A stretch of DNA of 64,000 bases from Oryzomonas sagensis. GTDB taxonomy: Bacteria > Desulfobacterota > Desulfuromonadia > Geobacterales > Pseudopelobacteraceae. The stretch is taken from NCBI RefSeq assembly GCF_008802355.1, contig NZ_VZRA01000001.1, forward strand, positions 986,525-1,050,524, in the 5' to 3' direction. This document shows, one piece after another, positions 10,359-45,403 of this stretch (positions are counted from its first letter, which is position 1; every line of letters starts with the position of its first letter). The notes below the pieces were generated by a model, which worked only from the letters and a program-made list of their open reading frames with translations, was not told where the DNA came from and did not search any database. Both the position numbers and the translations under genes were made by a program.

Positions 10359-11882
<1,524 letters not shown>

Positions 11883-14769: not shown

Positions 14770-14785
14770 CGGCACGCTTCCTGCT
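14770..14785 (+). promoter_or_regulatory. sigma-54 (-24/-12) promoter of the etf operon
   Basis: CGGCACG then CTGCT, with GG at 14771-14772 and GC at 14783-14784, 12 apart; close to consensus TGGCACG-N4-TTGC. Predicted start point is near 14796, giving a leader of about 115 bases that contains an ANTAR-type hairpin and a terminator. Confidence 0.75.
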
Positions 14786-14825
14786 CATGGTAAACTTCAT
14801 TCCGTCTTTGGCGGGATTCGAGATT

Positions 14826-14873
14826 GGGCACCGGAGCCCGGCATTGACCAGAGTGCCGGGCTTATTCTTTTTT
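14826..14873 (+). promoter_or_regulatory. ANTAR-type hairpin overlapping a leader terminator (etf operon)
   Basis: Hairpin GGGC-ACCGGA-GCCC (14826-14839) has a hexaloop with A at position 1 and G at position 4. Its 3' arm GCCC is also the start of the terminator stem GCCCGGCA/TGCCGGGC (14836-14843 and 14854-14861), which is followed by a T-rich run to 14873. The two structures exclude each other, as in ANTAR antitermination sites. The usual upstream partner hairpin (P1) is not clear. Confidence 0.65.
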
Positions 14874-14911: not shown

Positions 14912-15727
14912 ATGCTCGTAGTTGCCTGTATCAAACAGGTCCCCGACACCACCCAGGTGCAGATCGATCCGGTCACCAACACCCTGGTGCGCGAGGGCAT
15001 CCCCTTTATCGTCAACCCCTATGATACCCATGCCCTGGAAGAGGCGCTGCGCCTGAAGGACCGCTTTGGGTGCAAGGTCGCCGTCCTCTCCATGGGACCG
15101 CCCAATGCCGAGGCAACCCTCAGGAAGGCCCTGGCCCTGGGAGTCGATATAGCCATCCTGCTCTCCGACCGGGTCTTCGGCGGAGCCGATACCCTGGCCA
15201 CCAGCAATGTGCTTTCGGCGGCAATCCGCAAGCTGAACAGCGAGGTGGACGAGGTCGGTCTGGTGCTGTGCGGCAAGCAAACCATCGACGGCGATACGGC
15301 CCAGGTCGGCCCCGGCATCGCCACCCGCCTCGCCTACCAGCAACTCACCCTGGTGGACCGCATCGACAACCTGGATGTCGGGGGCAAGCGCATCCGGGTC
15401 AGCCGCAAACTGGAAGGACGCCACGAGATCGTGGAGGCGCCCCTGCCCGCCATGCTGACCGTGGTGCGCGAACTGAACCGGCCGCGCTATCCCCGCGTCC
15501 CCATGCGCCTGGCCGCGGCCGATGCCCAGGTGGAGGTCTGGAACAATCAGGTCCTCAAGCTGGACGAGCAGTCCATCGGTCTCAAGGGGTCGCCTACCTG
15601 GGTCAGCAAGATCTTTTCGCCGGAGCGGGCCAAGGGCGAGATCCTGGGAGACGGCGCCGCCGATCCCGAGGGTACGGCGGCGCTTTTGATCGACAAGCTG
15701 CTGGCGAAGGACATGCTGCCGCTGTAA
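14912..15727 (+). CDS. etfB: electron transfer flavoprotein beta subunit
   Basis: 271 residues, with AGGAG upstream. The start MLVVACIKQVPDTTQVQIDP and the segments NPYDTHALEEALRLKD, GKQTIDGDTAQVGPGIATRL and ATTLPAMLTVV-like EAPLPAMLTVVREL are characteristic of EtfB/FixA. Known role: with EtfA forms a heterodimeric FAD protein that carries electrons between dehydrogenases and a membrane oxidoreductase. In some types it bifurcates electrons. The operon order etfB-etfA-hdrD-like matches the ETF:menaquinone oxidoreductase systems of Geobacter. Upstream is a sigma-54 promoter plus a terminator leader of the same design as those of nifB and nifH, so expression is probably tied to nitrogen status. 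Confidence 0.92.
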   Translation: MLVVACIKQVPDTTQVQIDPVTNTLVREGIPFIVNPYDTHALEEALRLKDRFGCKVAVLSMGPPNAEATLRKALALGVDIAILLSDRVFGGADTLATSNVLSAAIRKLNSEVDEVGLVLCGKQTIDGDTAQVGPGIATRLAYQQLTLVDRIDNLDVGGKRIRVSRKLEGRHEIVEAPLPAMLTVVRELNRPRYPRVPMRLAAADAQVEVWNNQVLKLDEQSIGLKGSPTWVSKIFSPERAKGEILGDGAADPEGTAALLIDKLLAKDMLPL

Positions 15728-15832: not shown

Positions 15833-17161
15833 ATGAGTGAACCACAACCTAAAGTGAAAAAACCCCGGGGCAAGGCGCACCTCATCACCGGCAAGTGTAT
15901 CGCCTGCGGCGCCCGCTGTCAGAGCGTCTGCCCGGTCAATGCCATCGAGATGAACGATGCCGGCGAACCGATCGTCATCCCGGAGAAATGCATCGGCTGC
16001 GTCAAATGCGTCAAGATCTGCCCGGCCAGCGCCCTGGAGATGTTCTTCACCCCCGAGGAGTTGAAGATACTGGAGCAACTGGCGGCAAGCGCCGCTCCGG
16101 CCGAAGAAGAGGTGGACGAGGAGGCCGCGGCCCTGGCCAAAAAACTGGCCGCCTACCGGGGAGTCTGGGTCTTCGTCGAACAGACCGAGGGGGAACCGGC
16201 CAAGGTCTCCTGGGAACTGCTCGGGGCGGGAGCCCGGCTGGCCGCCTCCCTGGGGGTCGAGTTGTGCGCCCTGGTGATCGGCGACAAGGTGGAACACCTC
16301 TGCACCGAGGCCTTCGCCCACGGGGCCGCCAAGGCCTATCTGCTGGATGCGCCGGTGTACCGCAACTACCGCACCGAGGCGTATCTGGAGGCCTGCTGCC
16401 ACCTGATTGCCACGTACAAACCGGAAGTCGTCCTGATGGGCGCCAGCGGCATGGGGCGCGACCTGGCCGGAGCTGTCGCGACCCGGGTGGCCACGGGGCT
16501 GACCGCCGACTGCACCGGTCTGGATATCGACGACAAGCGTAACCTGATGCAGACCCGCCCGGCTTTCGGCGGCAACATCATGGCAACCATCATGTGCGAC
16601 AAGTTCCGCCCCCAGATGGCCACGGTCCGCCCCAATGTCATGCCGATGCCGGAACGGAAGGAAGGCGCCACGGGCACTATCGTCCGGGTGGACTTCGTGG
16701 TCCCGGAGGAGAGCATCCTCACCAAGGTCATGGAGATCATCCGCGACGCCACGAGCAAGGGGCACGTGGACATCACCGGCGCCGACTTCATCGTCTCCGG
16801 CGGCCGCGGCATGATGGCGCCCGAGAACTTCGCCATCCTGCAGGAGTTGGCCGAGGAGTTGGGCGGCGTGGTGGGGGCCTCCCGCAGCGCCGTGGATGCC
16901 GGCTGGATGCCGGGTGACCGCCAGGTCGGCCAGACCGGCAAGACCGTCCGCCCCAAGATCTACATCGCCTGCGGCATCTCCGGCGCCATTCAGCATCTGG
17001 TGGGCATGCAGGACTCGGACATGGTCATCGCCATCAACCGCGACCGCCAGGCGCCGATCTTCGAGGTCGCCACCTACGGCATCGTCGGCGACCTGTTCCA
17101 GGTGGTGCCGGCCATAACGAAACGGATCAGGGAATTGAAACAGCAGCAAAGTACCCACTAA
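15833..17161 (+). CDS. etfA: electron transfer flavoprotein alpha subunit with N-terminal ferredoxin domain
   Basis: 442 residues, longer than a plain EtfA (~320). The extra N-terminal ~75 residues hold two [4Fe-4S] motifs, CIACGARCQSVCP and CIGCVKCVKICP. After an acidic linker comes the EtfA N-domain (about 105-300). The C-terminal FAD-binding domain follows with VVGASRSAVDAGW, QVGQTGKTV and YIACGISGAIQHLVGM. Known: FAD sits between EtfA and EtfB. The ferredoxin extension gives a path for low-potential electrons. It lies 105 bases after etfB; the gap has an imperfect inverted repeat (GTGAATAGTGAA / TTCACCATTCA) of unknown meaning. The following gene is separated by a 169-bp palindromic element. 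Confidence 0.93.
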   Translation: MSEPQPKVKKPRGKAHLITGKCIACGARCQSVCPVNAIEMNDAGEPIVIPEKCIGCVKCVKICPASALEMFFTPEELKILEQLAASAAPAEEEVDEEAAALAKKLAAYRGVWVFVEQTEGEPAKVSWELLGAGARLAASLGVELCALVIGDKVEHLCTEAFAHGAAKAYLLDAPVYRNYRTEAYLEACCHLIATYKPEVVLMGASGMGRDLAGAVATRVATGLTADCTGLDIDDKRNLMQTRPAFGGNIMATIMCDKFRPQMATVRPNVMPMPERKEGATGTIVRVDFVVPEESILTKVMEIIRDATSKGHVDITGADFIVSGGRGMMAPENFAILQELAEELGGVVGASRSAVDAGWMPGDRQVGQTGKTVRPKIYIACGISGAIQHLVGMQDSDMVIAINRDRQAPIFEVATYGIVGDLFQVVPAITKRIRELKQQQSTH

Positions 17162-17171
17162 CATAGCTCCC

Positions 17172-17340
17172 GAATCCGTGACGCCTCCATGCCACAGTGC
17201 CCGGAAGGCCTCAGCCTTTGCCGTTAAGAAGACGCCGGCAACCCGTCCGAGGACCGGCAGAGTGAGCGGCTTGCTGCGACACGGGCGACGTGCGGGCTCC
17301 GGATCTTCCGGTCACTGCGGCACTCCGGCGTCACGGATTC
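17172..17340 (+). repeat. palindromic element, family 2, copy 1 (169 bp)
   Basis: Ends are perfect 14-bp inverted repeats GAATCCGTGACGCC (17172-17185) and GGCGTCACGGATTC (17327-17340). A second copy is at 20057-20228. Interior segments (for example CCGGAAGGCCTC and GCCTTTG) are shared. No open frame of its own. MITE-like: it sits inside the etf operon between etfA and the HdrD-like gene. Confidence 0.88.
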
Positions 17341-17376
17341 AGGCAGTTTTCATTTGCAAAAGATCGAGGTTTAGAC

Positions 17377-19350
17377 ATGACACCCAATCCGACCATATTC
17401 ACCCCCCTCCTGATCATCTCCCTCGGCATCTTTGCCTGGGGGTGTTGGCGCAGGCTCAGTCTGGTGGCCATAGGCCAAGCGGAGAACCGGTTCGACAATA
17501 TCGGCACCCGCATCGGCGAAATGCTGAAATACGCCTTCGGCCAAAAACGGGTCCTGGCCAAGCCGTTCGGCCTCAATCATTTCGTCATCTTCTGGTCGTT
17601 CATCATCCTGCTGGTCTCCAACACCGAGTTCCTGCTGCACGGCGTCTTCCCGTCCATCAGTCTGGCGCACCTGCCCGACGGCATCTATTTCCCGCTCCTC
17701 TTGGTGATCGATATCGTGTCGCTTCTGGCCCTCGTGGCGGTGGTCATCGCCATGGTCAGACGGATCATCGCGCCCCCCTATCCCGAGGCCCGCACCATCG
17801 AGGCGTTCTTTATCCTGGCGCTGATCGCCACCCTGATGCTGGCCAACTTCGGCATCAACGGGGCCAGGATATCCCACATGCCGGAGAATTATCTCGCCGT
17901 TGCCCGCACCTATATGCCGGTTTCGAGCTTTGCGGCCGGCCTGATTACGCCCTCCGCCGGAGCCCTGGTGTTCGGTGTCAGCTGGTGGGCCCATGCCGCC
18001 GCCCTTCTGCTCTTCATGTGCTATCTGCCCCACAGCAAGCACATGCACATCCTGACCGCCATCCCCAACTGCTTCTTCCGGCGGCTGGAGAAGCCCAATA
18101 CCCAACCCCGCGAGGAGTTCGTCAGCGGCAACACCTTTGGCGTCGCCCAGGCGGACCGCTTCACCTGGAAAGATCTGCTTGATTCCATGGCCTGCACCGA
18201 ATGCGGCCGCTGCCAGAAGGTCTGTCCGGCCAATATCACCGGCAAGCCGCTCAATCCGCGGGCCGTTGTCCACGATATCAAGGTCAACCTGCTGGAGAAC
18301 GGCGCCCTGCTCAAACAGGGGGCAACGCCGGCTACCCCCCTGATCGGTGACGGGGGCGAGGGGAGCGTGGCCGAAGAGGTGATCTGGGGCTGCACCACCT
18401 GCGGAGCCTGCATGGAGGTCTGCCCGGTCTTCATCGAGCAGATGCCCAAGATCGTCAAGATGCGTCGCCACTTGGTGGAGAACGAGGCCCGCTTCCCCGA
18501 GGAGTTGCTCAATCTGTTCGAGAACATGGAGGGGCGCAGCAACCCCTGGGGCATCGCCCCGTCGGAGCGCACCAAGTGGTGCGCCCAGATGGAGGTCAAG
18601 CCTTTCGACAAGAATACCACCGAGTACCTGCTCTACGTCGGCTGCGCCGGTTCGTTCGACTCGCGCAGCAAGCACGTCAGTGTGGCCCTGGCCCAACTGC
18701 TGGACAAGGCCGGCGTCTCCTGGGGCATCCTGGGCAAGGACGAAAAATGCTGCGGCGACAGTCTGCGCCGCCTGGGCAACGAGTACGTCTTCGACCGCAT
18801 GGCCAAAGAAAACGTGCGGATCTTCACCGAGCGGGGCGTCAAGAAGGTCATCACCCAGTGCCCCCACTGTTTCTCGACCCTGAAAAACGATTACCGGCAG
18901 TATGGGCTCGAGCTGGAGGTGATCCACCACAGCGAGTTCCTGCGCAACCTGGTGCAGGACGGCCATCTCAAGCTGGAGGGGACGTCCGCGGAGTTGGGGG
19001 CCACCGTGTTCCACGATTCCTGCTACCTGGGGCGGCATAACGATGTGTACGACGCGCCGCGCGAGGTGATCGAACTTGCCACCGGAGCCGCCCCGGCCGA
19101 GATGGAGCGCAACCGCAACAACGCTTTCTGCTGCGGGGCCGGCGGCGGCAGGATGTGGATGGAGGAGCATACCGGCGAGCGGATCAACCTCACTCGGGTC
19201 AGGGAAGCGTTGGAAGAGAAGCCGGACACCATCTGTGTCTCCTGTCCCTACTGCCTGACCATGTTCGAGGACGGGCTCAAGGACGTGAAGGCCGACAGCG
19301 TCAAGGTGCGCGACGTGGCAGAAGTCCTGGCCGAGGCGGCGCTCCGGTAA
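17377..19350 (+). CDS. HdrD-like membrane Fe-S oxidoreductase (ETF:menaquinone oxidoreductase type)
   Basis: 657 residues from the ATG at 17377, preceded by GAGG; the longer in-frame start lies in the repeat element. The N-terminal ~250 residues contain about five or six hydrophobic spans of the NarI/DsrM type. Then come two [4Fe-4S] motifs, CTECGRCQKVCP and CTTCGACMEVCP. Two cysteine-rich CCG domains follow, with KCCGDSLRRLG...CPHCFSTL, HDSCYLGRHND and FCCGAGGGRMW. This architecture matches the EMO/HdrD-like partner of EtfAB that exchanges electrons with menaquinone at the cytoplasmic membrane. Context: third gene of a sigma-54/ANTAR-controlled operon. Inference: it may provide reducing power for nitrogenase, as FixABCX does elsewhere. 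It could instead serve acyl-CoA oxidation. Confidence 0.88.
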   Translation: MTPNPTIFTPLLIISLGIFAWGCWRRLSLVAIGQAENRFDNIGTRIGEMLKYAFGQKRVLAKPFGLNHFVIFWSFIILLVSNTEFLLHGVFPSISLAHLPDGIYFPLLLVIDIVSLLALVAVVIAMVRRIIAPPYPEARTIEAFFILALIATLMLANFGINGARISHMPENYLAVARTYMPVSSFAAGLITPSAGALVFGVSWWAHAAALLLFMCYLPHSKHMHILTAIPNCFFRRLEKPNTQPREEFVSGNTFGVAQADRFTWKDLLDSMACTECGRCQKVCPANITGKPLNPRAVVHDIKVNLLENGALLKQGATPATPLIGDGGEGSVAEEVIWGCTTCGACMEVCPVFIEQMPKIVKMRRHLVENEARFPEELLNLFENMEGRSNPWGIAPSERTKWCAQMEVKPFDKNTTEYLLYVGCAGSFDSRSKHVSVALAQLLDKAGVSWGILGKDEKCCGDSLRRLGNEYVFDRMAKENVRIFTERGVKKVITQCPHCFSTLKNDYRQYGLELEVIHHSEFLRNLVQDGHLKLEGTSAELGATVFHDSCYLGRHNDVYDAPREVIELATGAAPAEMERNRNNAFCCGAGGGRMWMEEHTGERINLTRVREALEEKPDTICVSCPYCLTMFEDGLKDVKADSVKVRDVAEVLAEAALR

Positions 19351-19391: not shown

Positions 19392-19420
19392 GCCCCGGCA
19401 GTAAATGCCGGGGCTTTTTT
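19392..19420 (+). terminator. intrinsic terminator of the etf operon
   Basis: Perfect stem GCCCCGGCA / TGCCGGGGC (19392-19400 and 19406-19414), 5-base loop, then six T. It lies 41 bases past the stop codon. Confidence 0.93.
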
Positions 19421-19428
19421 GTGGACAA

Positions 19429-19444
19429 TGGCATATTAGATGCA
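19429..19444 (+). promoter_or_regulatory. sigma-54 (-24/-12) promoter of the ANTAR regulator gene
   Basis: TGGCAT then ATGCA, with GG at 19430-19431 and GC at 19442-19443, 12 apart. Predicted start near 19455, about 29 bases before the ATG at 19484. No terminator leader here, unlike the three target-like operons. Confidence 0.7.
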
Positions 19445-19483: not shown

Positions 19484-20047
19484 ATGAAAACAGTTTTGAT
19501 ATGCGACGATGAGCCACTCATCAGGATGAGCCTGAAGGCCATGCTCATGGAGCTTGGCTTCGAGGATGTGCTGGAGTGCGGGGACGGCAAAAGCGCCGTG
19601 GAAATGGCCATGGCGAGCTTTCCCGATATGGCGGTGCTGGATGTGGCCATGCCCATAATGGACGGTATAACCGCGGCAAAAGAGATCAAGAAAAAGCTCA
19701 AGATCCCCATCATGCTCCTGACCAACTGCTACGATGCCCAGACCGCGAAACGGGCAGCGGAGAGCGGAATTGCCGCTTTTTTAACCAAGCCGCTCCGGGA
19801 GCAGGACCTCATCCCGGCTATCGAGATCGCCCTGGCCCATACCGAACAGGTGGAAGACCTCAAGGAAAAGATCGAGGACCTCAAGGAAACCATCGAGAAT
19901 CGGAAGGTGATTGAAAAGGCCAAGGGGACGTTGATGGAAAAACAGCGCTTGAGCGAGGCCGACGCCTATCGCGCCATGCAGAAACTGGCCATGGACAAAC
20001 GCAAAAGCCTGCGCCAGGTTGCGGACGGCATCCTGAAGGGGGTATAA
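19484..20047 (+). CDS. response regulator with ANTAR RNA-binding domain (GnfR-like antiterminator)
   Basis: 187 residues from the ATG at 19484 with GGGAGG upstream. Receiver domain (~1-120): acidic pair DDE near residue 8, phospho-acceptor D in VLDVAMPIMDG, then T/S region LLTN and K in FLTKPLREQ. A coiled coil of repeated EDLKEKIEDLKETIE follows. The ANTAR domain (~137-187) contains KVIEKAKGTLMEKQRLSEADAYRAMQKLA. Known: ANTAR proteins bind paired RNA hairpins and block terminator formation. In Geobacter sulfurreducens the GnfK/GnfR system controls nif genes this way (recalled from the literature). The gene lies between the etf operon and the nif genes, both of which have matching leader structures. 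Its cognate kinase is not in this window. Confidence 0.93.
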   Translation: MKTVLICDDEPLIRMSLKAMLMELGFEDVLECGDGKSAVEMAMASFPDMAVLDVAMPIMDGITAAKEIKKKLKIPIMLLTNCYDAQTAKRAAESGIAAFLTKPLREQDLIPAIEIALAHTEQVEDLKEKIEDLKETIENRKVIEKAKGTLMEKQRLSEADAYRAMQKLAMDKRKSLRQVADGILKGV

Positions 20048-20056
20048 GGTCTACCC

Positions 20057-20228
20057 TGAATCTGTGACGCCTCCATGTCTCCGCTGGTCCGGAAGGCCTC
20101 TGCCTTTGCGTTTGAGCACTCTGCGACCATCAGGCGGCGGACCAGCCTGGTGAGTGGGCTGTCACGATACGGCGGCGTTCGGGCCCCGGCTCTTCCGGGC
20201 GCTGCGGCATTCCGGCGTCACAGATTCA
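20057..20228 (+). repeat. palindromic element, family 2, copy 2 (172 bp)
   Basis: Terminal inverted repeats TGAATCTGTGACGCC (20057-20071) and GGCGTCACAGATTCA (20214-20228), 15 bp and perfect. Similar in length and interior to 17172-17340. It lies between the convergent ANTAR gene and draG and ends 3 bases from the draG stop codon. Confidence 0.88.
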
Positions 20229-20231
20229 GAT

Positions 20232-21137
20232 TTACATCATGCTTCCCGCCGGGCTGGCGGCAATCAACCGCCCGGCCAGCGTGGTGATCTCGCTAATCAC
20301 GTTCCTATCCACCTTCTTCAGCCAGCGCTGGGGAATCCCTTCCATGCCGTAGTAGGCCCCGGCCAGCATGCCGCAGATGGCGCCGGTCGTATCCGCGTCA
20401 GCCCCCTGATTGACGGTCCCCACGACGCACTCCTCGAAGTTCTTCCCTTTGAAAAACCAATGAAAGACGGTCTGGAGCGTATCCACCACGTAGCCGGTGG
20501 CCAGCCCCCGGTAGGGCTCGAAATGAAAGGTGGGAAACCGGGCCACCAGGCCGTCGGCCTGACGGCGCAGACGAGTCCGGGATGCACCGCAGATCGCCAG
20601 GTGCAGAAGTTCTCCCAGGCAGACGCAGGCCGCGTCCGACAGGGGGTTGTTGTGGGTGATGTGGGCCTGTTCGAGCGCATATTTCTTCAACAGTTCACCG
20701 TCGGGGAGGGAGAAGAGCGCCACCGGCACGATCCGCATGGCAGCGCCGTTGCCGGCGTCCCACTCGTTCGGGGGCGATTCCAGGGTGCCGTTCAACATGT
20801 AGGCGCGGATACCCTTGCGGCAGGTGTCGCCGCAATCCACCGGCCGGGATTTGAGCCAGGCGGCAAAATTGCGGGCGATGCTCTCCACGGACCATCCCTG
20901 GTTTTCGACGATTGCCCGGGCGATGCAGAGGGCCATCTCGGTGTCGTCGGTTACCTGCCCCGGCTTCAGGCGGAGCCAGCCGCCGCCGATGATCTCCTTG
21001 AAGGTGCCGTATTTTGCGGCAATCTCCGACGCCGTCATGAACTCGACCGTCGCGCCGAGGGCGTCGCCGATGGCCATGCCGATAAAGGCTGCCGTGGCTC
21101 TGCTGCTGATTTCTGCGGGATTGTACAGGTTGAACAT
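20232..21137 (-). CDS. draG: ADP-ribosylglycohydrolase, dinitrogenase reductase activating (DraG)
   Basis: 301 residues from the ATG at 21137. The family core is clear: AAFIGMAIGDALGATVEFM, the metal site VTDDTEMAL, and the C-terminal NQGADADTTGAICGMLAGAYYG, which supplies the dinuclear Mn ligands. Known role: removes ADP-ribose from the regulatory arginine of NifH, reactivating nitrogenase after an ammonium or energy shock. That target arginine is present in the NifH encoded here (R99). The start has only a weak ribosome site; a longer start at 21197 is possible but begins before family homology. A -24/-12 element lies upstream. No draT transferase is encoded in this window, so the modifying partner must be elsewhere or absent. 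Confidence 0.88.
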   Translation of the reverse strand: MFNLYNPAEISSRATAAFIGMAIGDALGATVEFMTASEIAAKYGTFKEIIGGGWLRLKPGQVTDDTEMALCIARAIVENQGWSVESIARNFAAWLKSRPVDCGDTCRKGIRAYMLNGTLESPPNEWDAGNGAAMRIVPVALFSLPDGELLKKYALEQAHITHNNPLSDAACVCLGELLHLAICGASRTRLRRQADGLVARFPTFHFEPYRGLATGYVVDTLQTVFHWFFKGKNFEECVVGTVNQGADADTTGAICGMLAGAYYGMEGIPQRWLKKVDRNVISEITTLAGRLIAASPAGSMM

Positions 21138-21192
21138 GGGGCAACCGTCCAGAGGGGAATTGGCAGAACTTCCACGTATCCCTGCTAAGGCC

Positions 21193-21209
21193 TGCAAAAG
21201 CGAAACCAG
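21193..21209 (-). promoter_or_regulatory. candidate sigma-54 promoter for draG
   Basis: On the minus strand CTGGTTTCG then TTTTGCA: GG at 21207-21206 and GC at 21195-21194, spacing 12. The -12 half is strong, the -24 half weaker (TGGTTT). Predicted start near 21183, about 46 bases before the chosen ATG. Confidence 0.5.
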
Positions 21210-21421: not shown

Positions 21422-21458
21422 AGGCAACGGAGCCTGCGGAGAGAGCCGCAGGCTTTTT
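21422..21458 (+). promoter_or_regulatory. ANTAR-type hairpin overlapping a leader terminator (nifB)
   Basis: Hairpin AGGC-AACGGA-GCCT (21422-21435) has a hexaloop with A1 and G4. Its 3' arm is the first half of the terminator stem GCCTGCGG-AGAGAG-CCGCAGGC (21432-21453), followed by TTTTT. Forming the first hairpin blocks the terminator. The nifB ribosome site AAGGAG comes right after. Confidence 0.7.
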
Positions 21459-24745: not shown

Positions 24746-24762
24746 TTGGCATGTAGGATGCA
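24746..24762 (+). promoter_or_regulatory. sigma-54 (-24/-12) promoter of nifHDK
   Basis: TTGGCATG then ATGCAT, with GG at 24748-24749 and GC at 24760-24761, 12 apart. The predicted start is near 24773, so the nifH leader is about 140 bases. No coding frame in 24611-24911. Confidence 0.82.
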
Positions 24763-24806: not shown

Positions 24807-25778
<972 letters not shown>

Positions 25779-39324: not shown

Positions 39325-39339
39325 TGTTCGATAGACCTG

Positions 39340-39435
39340 CTTATCGAGAGTGGTGGAGGGAAAGGCCCTGCGAAGCCACAGCAACCGGCCAATGAGGCGT
39401 CAGGTGCTAATTCCTGCCGAAAGGCAAAGATGAGG
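39340..39435 (+). ncRNA. SAM-I (S-box) riboswitch
   Basis: The conserved aptamer pattern is present: CTTATCGAGAG, GGTGGAGGGA, GGCCCTGCGAAGCC, CAGCAACC, GGTGCTAATTCC and GCCGAAAGGC. CTTATC can pair with GATGAG near 39430 to close P1. It controls the methionine gene metX. A terminator follows at 39460-39492. Confidence 0.92.
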
Positions 39436-39459
39436 GGTGTGCTGTAAACGTCGCGTTTC

Positions 39460-45131: not shown

Positions 45132-45302
45132 TATGGCCTCAAACTAAAGAGCTTATTCTGTAACGAAAACGCCAAGACTATAGCACAAAATAGCGGATGG
45201 GGGAGAAGAATTGAAAAAACGCGGGGTTCAGTTTTTTATTTTCGCCCCTGTGCCGGTATAAATTCGATTGACAGCGTCGCGTCAATACACTAGGTTAATG
45301 TA

Positions 45303-45386
45303 AACGCTGGGGGAGTTTCGACTGAGAGCGGCGCTGCGTCGCGACCCTTAGTACCTGATCCGGGTAATGCCGGCGTAGGGAAGCGC
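45303..45386 (+). ncRNA. TPP riboswitch (THI element)
   Basis: Conserved blocks are visible: GGGGGAG, CTGAGAG, ACCCTTAGTACCTGATCCGG (pyrophosphate and pyrimidine binding strands) and GTAATGCCGGCGTAGGGAA. It heads the thiS-thiG operon. Confidence 0.95.
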
Positions 45387-45403
45387 AAACATTCAGATGT
45401 TCC

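Follow-up and report, generated by a model that had tools for sequence, protein, structure and literature searches.

The window analyzed here, a stretch of 64,000 nt of the 3.6 Mb genome of Oryzomonas sagensis, a Geobacter-related soil bacterium (contig NZ_VZRA01000001.1, hereafter C1, positions 986525-1050524), carries an electron transfer flavoprotein (ETF) operon close to genes of nitrogen fixation. The gene order is gdhA (minus strand), etfB-etfA-etfD, a gene for an ANTAR response regulator, draG (minus strand), nifB, a GNAT acetyltransferase gene, nifV, nifH, nifD, and nifK. NCBIfam models for nifH, nifV, nifE, and draG scored above their cut-offs, and that for nifB fell just below (335.7 bits versus a cut-off of 343.65). 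The EtfA encoded here shares 97% identity with EtfA of O. japonica Red96. At the gathering score, Rfam retrieved only a SAM riboswitch (39338-39436) and a TPP riboswitch (45299-45398) from the whole window. The genes and signals around the etf operon are as follows.

14912-15727, plus strand: etfB (Pfam ETF)
15833-17161, plus strand: etfA with an N-terminal 4Fe-4S dicluster domain (Pfam ETF, ETF_alpha, and Fer4)
17377-19350, plus strand: etfD, encoding a HdrD/EtfD-like membrane Fe-S protein with two CxxCxxCxxxC motifs and the CCG domain in two stretches
19392-19421, plus strand: terminator behind the etf operon, recognized by eye
19429-19444, plus strand: sigma-54-type promoter of the ANTAR regulator gene, without a hexaloop leader
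19484-20047, plus strand: ANTAR response regulator gene (GnfR-like), directly after the etf operon
20232-21197, minus strand: draG, encoding ADP-ribosyl-dinitrogen-reductase hydrolase (above the NCBIfam cut-off), between the ANTAR regulator gene and nifB

Among solved chains, EtfB lies nearest to 7koe, 6fah, 5ol2, and 4kpu (E 2.7e-57 or better), all of which we take to be bifurcating ETFs, and is far from 1efv (E 3.9e-23). The HdrD/EtfD-like protein displays five N-terminal hydrophobic segments, with a sixth predicted segment overlapping a cysteine motif, and matches 9ojn_A with an E value of 5.4e-117; this entry, listed as an iron-sulfur-binding reductase, is presumably mycobacterial EtfD. 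A domain search of the genome retrieved no ETF-domain protein other than EtfB and EtfA. The ETF-QO domain (PF05187) gave 0 matches in the genome in a search whose control found the domain in 3 of 14 genomes, and matches to RnfC stayed below the cut-off throughout the genome. Two copies of an element of about 170 bp with inverted ends (GAATCCGTGACGCC / GGCGTCACGGATTC) were also seen by eye, one at 17170-17342 between etfA and etfD and the other at 20060-20230.

A profile search of the genome with PF03861 recovered one ANTAR protein only, the response regulator at 19484, which is the single candidate reader of the ANTAR-type RNAs of this genome. Its nearest relatives in the PDB are 1s8n and 6wsh, presumably Rv1626 and EutV, respectively. 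The regulator gene possesses its own sigma-54-type site and no hairpin, as expected if the regulator is made first. A protein combining GAF and sigma-54 activator domains is encoded at 10359-11882 on the minus strand; its top NCBIfam model is NifA, under the cut-off, and it is a candidate nif activator.

Anatomy of the etf leader

A preliminary description of this DNA proposed that the etf operon carries the same sigma-54 promoter, ANTAR hairpin, and terminator as the nif leaders. The elements of the etf leader, and their counterparts before nifB and nifH, are the following.

14770-14785, plus strand: sigma-54 promoter of etf, CGGCACGCTTCCTGCT, with the -24 GG at 14771-14772 and the -12 GC at 14783-14784
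14799-14817, plus strand: P1 hairpin, ATTCCG-TCTTTGG-CGGGAT, without a canonical hexaloop
14826-14839, plus strand: P2, an ANTAR-type hexaloop hairpin, GGGC-ACCGGA-GCCC (A1, G4), from reading of the sequence, the genome pattern search, and folding
14836-14873, plus strand: intrinsic terminator of the etf leader, with a stem at 14836-14861 and a T tract, sharing the 3' arm of P2
21354-21369, plus strand: sigma-54 promoter of nifB, read from the sequence
21422-21435, plus strand: P2 hairpin of the nifB leader, AGGC-AACGGA-GCCT, from the genome pattern search
24747-24762, plus strand: sigma-54 promoter of nifH, read from the sequence
24814-24827, plus strand: P2 hairpin of the nifH leader, CGGC-AAAGGC-GCCG, from the genome pattern search

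The promoter elements that had been named, GG at 14771 and GC at 14783, were confirmed in the sequence, as was a hairpin whose 3' arm begins the terminator. P2 consists of GGGC (14826-14829), the loop ACCGGA (14830-14835), in which the previously noted A1 and G4 are present, and GCCC (14836-14839). In the terminator, GCCCGGCA (14836-14843) pairs with TGCCGGGC (14854-14861), after which TTATTCTTTTTT follows (14862-14873). The nifB and nifH hairpin sequences likewise stood up, each occurring once in the window, with 0 matches in 100 shuffles. All three leaders have the hairpin, but the wording that it lies in the same place is only approximate, since the distance from the promoter GC to P2 is 42 nt in etf, 54 nt in nifB, and 53 nt in nifH.

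Folding of the terminator region (14827-14872) yielded -23.3 kcal/mol (z -3.9), and the leader folded alone (14795-14872) adopts P1 together with the terminator (-32.3 kcal/mol, z -3.4), whereas a leader RNA ending at 14840 folds as P1 and P2. P2 in the short RNA and the terminator in the full leader are mutually exclusive, which is the layout expected of antitermination.

The preliminary description overlooked P1, and the likeness it drew between the ANTAR hairpins applies to the P2 hexaloop shared with nif; P1 has no hexaloop. In the window, the P1 loop counts either 7 nt or UUU, and a hexaloop P1 is present in none of the etf, nifB, and nifH leaders. If P1 is counted as the first stem, the linker to P2 spans 8 nt (14818-14825). 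The P1 stem is preserved in eight aligned etf leaders, the window included, with 96% of cells paired and one pair showing changes on both sides; shuffles reach 93.3%, so this alignment is weak alone. A canonical P1 was rejected as a general feature, given that 6 of 37 leaders contain an A1/G4 hexaloop within 60 nt 5' of P2 (the tally of 7/38 against a shuffle mean of 2.3 includes, in both figures, a faulty WIN_nifE row of 3,111 nt instead of 60). Among etf leaders, a hexaloop P1 with a purine at position 1 and G4, placed 18-22 nt before P2, is found only in L149, L067, and L068.

Distribution of the proposed switch in the genome and among relatives

The leader was also searched for as an ordered pattern comprising a sigma-54 site, GGC-RNNGNN-GCC, and a T run, with the pattern read backwards as the control; genes beside whole-genome sites were named by tblastn. 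Across the genome, the pattern matches five distinct places, namely nifE (C1:951779), etf, nifB, nifH, and one stray on contig C2, and the reversed control gave 0 matches in the whole genome. On the sequence evidence, the proposal of the preliminary description that the Oryzomonas etf operon belongs to the nif regulon, here one of the sigma-54/ANTAR type, is strongly supported. A covariance model (R1) trained on the nifB and nifH leaders alone ranked the etf leader third within the window (E = 5.6e-4), after the two training members, but at genome scale etf dropped to sixth (E = 0.031). The model was rejected as a genome finder, as ordinary terminators outrank etf and nifE is missed.

The etf site is present in all six Oryzomonas genomes searched. 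Together these genomes contain 24 distinct pattern sites (etf 6, nifB 6, nifE 6, nifH 4, and strays 2; control 0), with the nifE label in G116 and G118 resting on leader similarity. The conservation of the hexaloop in related etf leaders that the preliminary description wanted checked was found within the genus, with the hairpin and G4 in 6/6 sites and A1 in 5/6. A sigma-54 site and P2 directly before etfB are also found in G066, G067, G077, G114-G118, and G121, which are nearer relatives. Across the family, the pattern occurs in 65 of 76 genomes, compared with 5 control matches in total. A subset of these matches, 30 loci with one per genome, was retrieved: 26 precede nif-type genes (8 nifE, 6 nifH, 2 nifB, 1 nifV, and 9 a gene whose product starts with MKIAFTTS), 2 precede etfB, and 2 are strays next to neither. 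The L199 site and the stray L255 both lie inside a coding frame. The MKIAFTTS gene (L190, L200, L204-L206, L209, and L215-L217) scored as Nitro_FeMo-Co in one of the nine loci; in family genomes this gene of the Nitro_FeMo-Co kind has a sigma-54 plus hexaloop leader, often with small ferredoxin-like genes after it.

In a survey blind to the loop sequence, the window and 80 named loci (81 sequences) contributed 1,014 terminators, and hairpins that overlap a terminator's 5' arm were collected; 59 of them combined three GC pairs with a loop of 6 nt. All 27 of those that precede etfB (13), nifB (13), or nifH (1) possess a GGC stem and G4, with position 1 being A (21) or G (6). For the remaining 32, GGC was found in only 11 and G4 in only 14, and five, two of which precede nifV, resemble the same motif. 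Position 1 is A in 14/14 nifB and nifH sites and G in 6/13 etf sites. Every one of the six G1 loops thus belongs to an etf site, so this position is less strictly kept before etfB than before the nif genes. Hairpins of the form GGC-ANNGNN-GCC on strong terminators were noted at L049 (near 14828), L070 (near 3205), and L074 (near 2343), and before nifV at L045 and L047, and are likely further targets of such a regulator.

A hairpin over a terminator was counted in 23 of 79 etf leaders, compared with 0.65 per shuffled set; the terminator rules behind this count and the loop-blind survey miss the etf leaders of the window and L002, probably because the T run is broken, and both are uncounted. The option of counting all hairpins 5' of etfB as etf leaders was rejected, because 15 of the 23 are situated 241-313 nt from etfB, and these were kept apart. 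Twelve of the 15 lie behind a gltA-like gene end, as identified with a regular expression. In the survey, 5 of the 13 etf sites (L012, L028, L030, L039, and L042) are far upstream, three of them behind such a gene end. Terminators at gltA ends with GGC-RNNGNN-GCC before etfB were observed in L008, L010, L012, L018, L022, L023, L029, L030, L035, L036, L040, and L042. Such hairpins may allow ANTAR-controlled read-through from gltA into etf, or may arise as a by-product of the terminator stem.

These surveys bear on whether P2 could be an accident of an ordinary terminator, with sigma-54 controlling etf and no ANTAR protein acting on the leader. Such an accident is consistent with the lack of a canonical hexaloop in P1 and with the relatives L005, L006, L031, and L032, in which a sigma-54-like site is retained and no P2 with terminator is seen. 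It is nevertheless improbable given that GGC and G4 are constant in 13/13 etf survey sites while other loop positions vary, that hairpins over etf terminators exceed the shuffled expectation (15 of the 23 being far upstream and 12 behind a gltA-like end), and that the pattern coincides genome-wide with nifE, nifB, and nifH. P2 could also be a real ANTAR site that answers a signal other than fixed nitrogen. ANTAR regulators elsewhere respond to ethanolamine, nitrate, or amides. In this genome, however, a different signal is very improbable, since the gene for the one ANTAR protein found neighbors draG and nif genes and the nifH, nifB, and nifE leaders contain the same hairpin.

The etf switch is not general across relatives. 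All 11 etf leaders retrieved from two further families in the order (f4, 8 leaders; f3, 3 leaders) lack the combination of sigma-54 site and P2. Several f3/f4 leaders (L225-L227, L229-L231, and L233) have in common, by eye, a near-palindrome like TTGCTTAAATTATAAGCAA, possibly the operator of a different regulator that replaces the sigma-54 switch. In G020, from another family, the etf genes reside within the nif cluster (nifB ... etfB etfA hdrD ... nifV), and seven named loci have etfB preceded by nifB and a gene that looks GNAT-like by eye. The switch is also absent in 11 etf leaders of genus g7, with 0 pattern sites in the DNA of those 11 loci, and a search for the regulator at E 1e-30 found none in 14 of 15 g7 genomes and a weak one in the other. 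The joint lack of etf switch and regulator agrees with the model in a comparison uncontrolled for relatedness. Eleven of the 15 g7 genomes (G124-G126, G129-G134, G137, and G138) do contain 1-3 pattern matches at unlisted locations, repeats of one place included, so that no strict link holds between the pattern and this regulator. Within f1, the etf leader lacks the switch in some genomes that do encode the regulator (e.g., L019 and L031). In a tree of 81 EtfA proteins, the switch was judged by eye to be scattered within the larger clade, which fits repeated gain or loss.

Proposed regulation and role of the ETF complex

We interpret positions 14770-14873 as a two-step nitrogen switch, a sigma-54 promoter followed by ANTAR antitermination, common to etf, nifH, nifB, and nifE, and assign this reading a probability of roughly 0.85. 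In the proposed mechanism, sigma-54 RNA polymerase, started by a nif activator, would transcribe the etf leader, and the transcript would stop at the intrinsic terminator unless the phosphorylated GnfR-like regulator (19484-20047) holds P2. Because P2 uses the first four bases of the terminator, a held P2 would let transcription enter etfB-etfA-etfD. Binding by the regulator, dependence on its phosphorylation, and antitermination at the etf leader are modeled on the precedents of GnfR and EutV. A nif-type switch before etf means that the ETF complex is probably made during nitrogen fixation, and with the same switch on nifH, nifB, and nifE, production of the sole ETF complex detected in this genome would coincide with that of nitrogenase.

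This arrangement bears on the source of low-potential electrons for nitrogenase in the Geobacter group. As the only detected ETF complex, under a nif switch and in a genome with no ETF-QO and no RnfC above the cut-off, EtfBA-EtfD is a candidate nitrogenase donor and may help power nitrogen fixation. A supply of low-potential electrons to nitrogenase by this complex is plausible, and is favored by the lack of other ETF-domain proteins, ETF-QO, and above-cut-off RnfC in the genome as well as by the proximity of EtfB to ETFs regarded as bifurcating. In its specific form, with electrons from NADH being split so that one reaches menaquinone via the EtfD-like protein and one reaches ferredoxin for nitrogenase, the proposal has somewhat better than even odds. 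The conserved leader is silent on the direction of electron flow.

Alternatively, the leader could be regulated as proposed while the complex serves general respiration, passing electrons from NADH or ferredoxin to menaquinone or even operating by confurcation, with nif control raising its dose when fixation drains electrons. In Geobacter sulfurreducens, GSU2795-2797, probably a complex of the same kind as Oryzomonas EtfBA-EtfD, is essential on fumarate and displays signature residues of confurcation-bifurcation complexes, with confurcation or bifurcation having been proposed (PMC5585712). With ammonium assumed to be present in that fumarate medium, this essentiality and the 11/11 f3/f4 leaders without the switch speak against the complex being dedicated purely to nif throughout the Geobacterales. 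Placement of the sole ETF pair found directly behind a sigma-54 promoter and attenuator would, however, be odd for a housekeeping enzyme, although additional promoters may lie upstream of the operon or within it. We give this respiratory reading odds clearly short of even.

The donor role can be extended into an evolutionary proposal, which we hold tentatively and rate a little under an even chance. A ferredoxin-fused EtfAB and its EtfD/HdrD-like membrane partner would, in Oryzomonas and certain relatives, replace FixABCX as the nif-dedicated, quinone-linked bifurcating donor, a former respiratory complex having been recruited via a sigma-54 promoter and an ANTAR attenuator. With the proposed switch, the RNA targets of a nif-linked ANTAR regulator would no longer be confined to nif genes, and the relatives supply naturally occurring leaders that either have or lack A1 or P1.

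Comparison with known systems

For the GnfM/GnfR system of G. sulfurreducens, Ueki and Lovley reportedly described in 2010 nif sigma-54 promoters followed by terminators that are relieved by an ANTAR response regulator. The Oryzomonas locus resembles that system in combining a sigma-54 promoter, a terminator, and a nif-linked ANTAR response regulator; the difference is that the Oryzomonas target here is the etf operon. In G. sulfurreducens, gnfR corresponds to GSU2822 and gnfK to GSU0941 (PMC7962754).

EutV, NasR, and AmiR are named as ANTAR regulators (PMC3369931), and their target RNAs carry, at an intrinsic terminator, a hexaloop in which position 1 is A and position 4 is G (PMC3369931, PMC8164766). 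By the dual-hairpin definition of such RNAs, a linker of 2-25 nt separates the two hairpins (PMC8164766). The etf leader shares the A1/G4 hexaloop in P2 and, if P1 is accepted, has a conforming linker of 8 nt, but it possesses a single canonical hexaloop, with P1 offering a 7-nt or UUU loop. By sequence, it is of the same kind as the neighboring nif leaders and fails the strict dual-hexaloop definition. Among the literature matches listed, which do not extend to the 2010 GnfR target tables, none named an etf operon as an ANTAR target, and none was found that joins "ANTAR domain" and "electron transfer flavoprotein".

EtfB is closest in sequence to 7koe_A, from what we take to be the Thermotoga bifurcating FixABCX/EtfABCX complex, and a link of ETF to nif is likewise shared with FixABCX. 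In contrast to FixABCX, no ETF-QO ferredoxin domain was found in the Oryzomonas genome, the ferredoxin domain is fused to EtfA, and a HdrD-like membrane protein stands in place of FixC/FixX. In Geomonas grown on N2, fixA is upregulated (log2 4.41), with fixB at 0.73, in a study that also cites EtfAB induction in G. sulfurreducens (PMC10746287). The match of the HdrD-like protein to 9ojn_A connects the complex to ETF:quinone oxidoreductases of the EtfD/EMO type. A role in beta-oxidation is attributed to mycobacterial EtfD (PMC13083937), whereas etfD of Oryzomonas lies under a nif-type switch.
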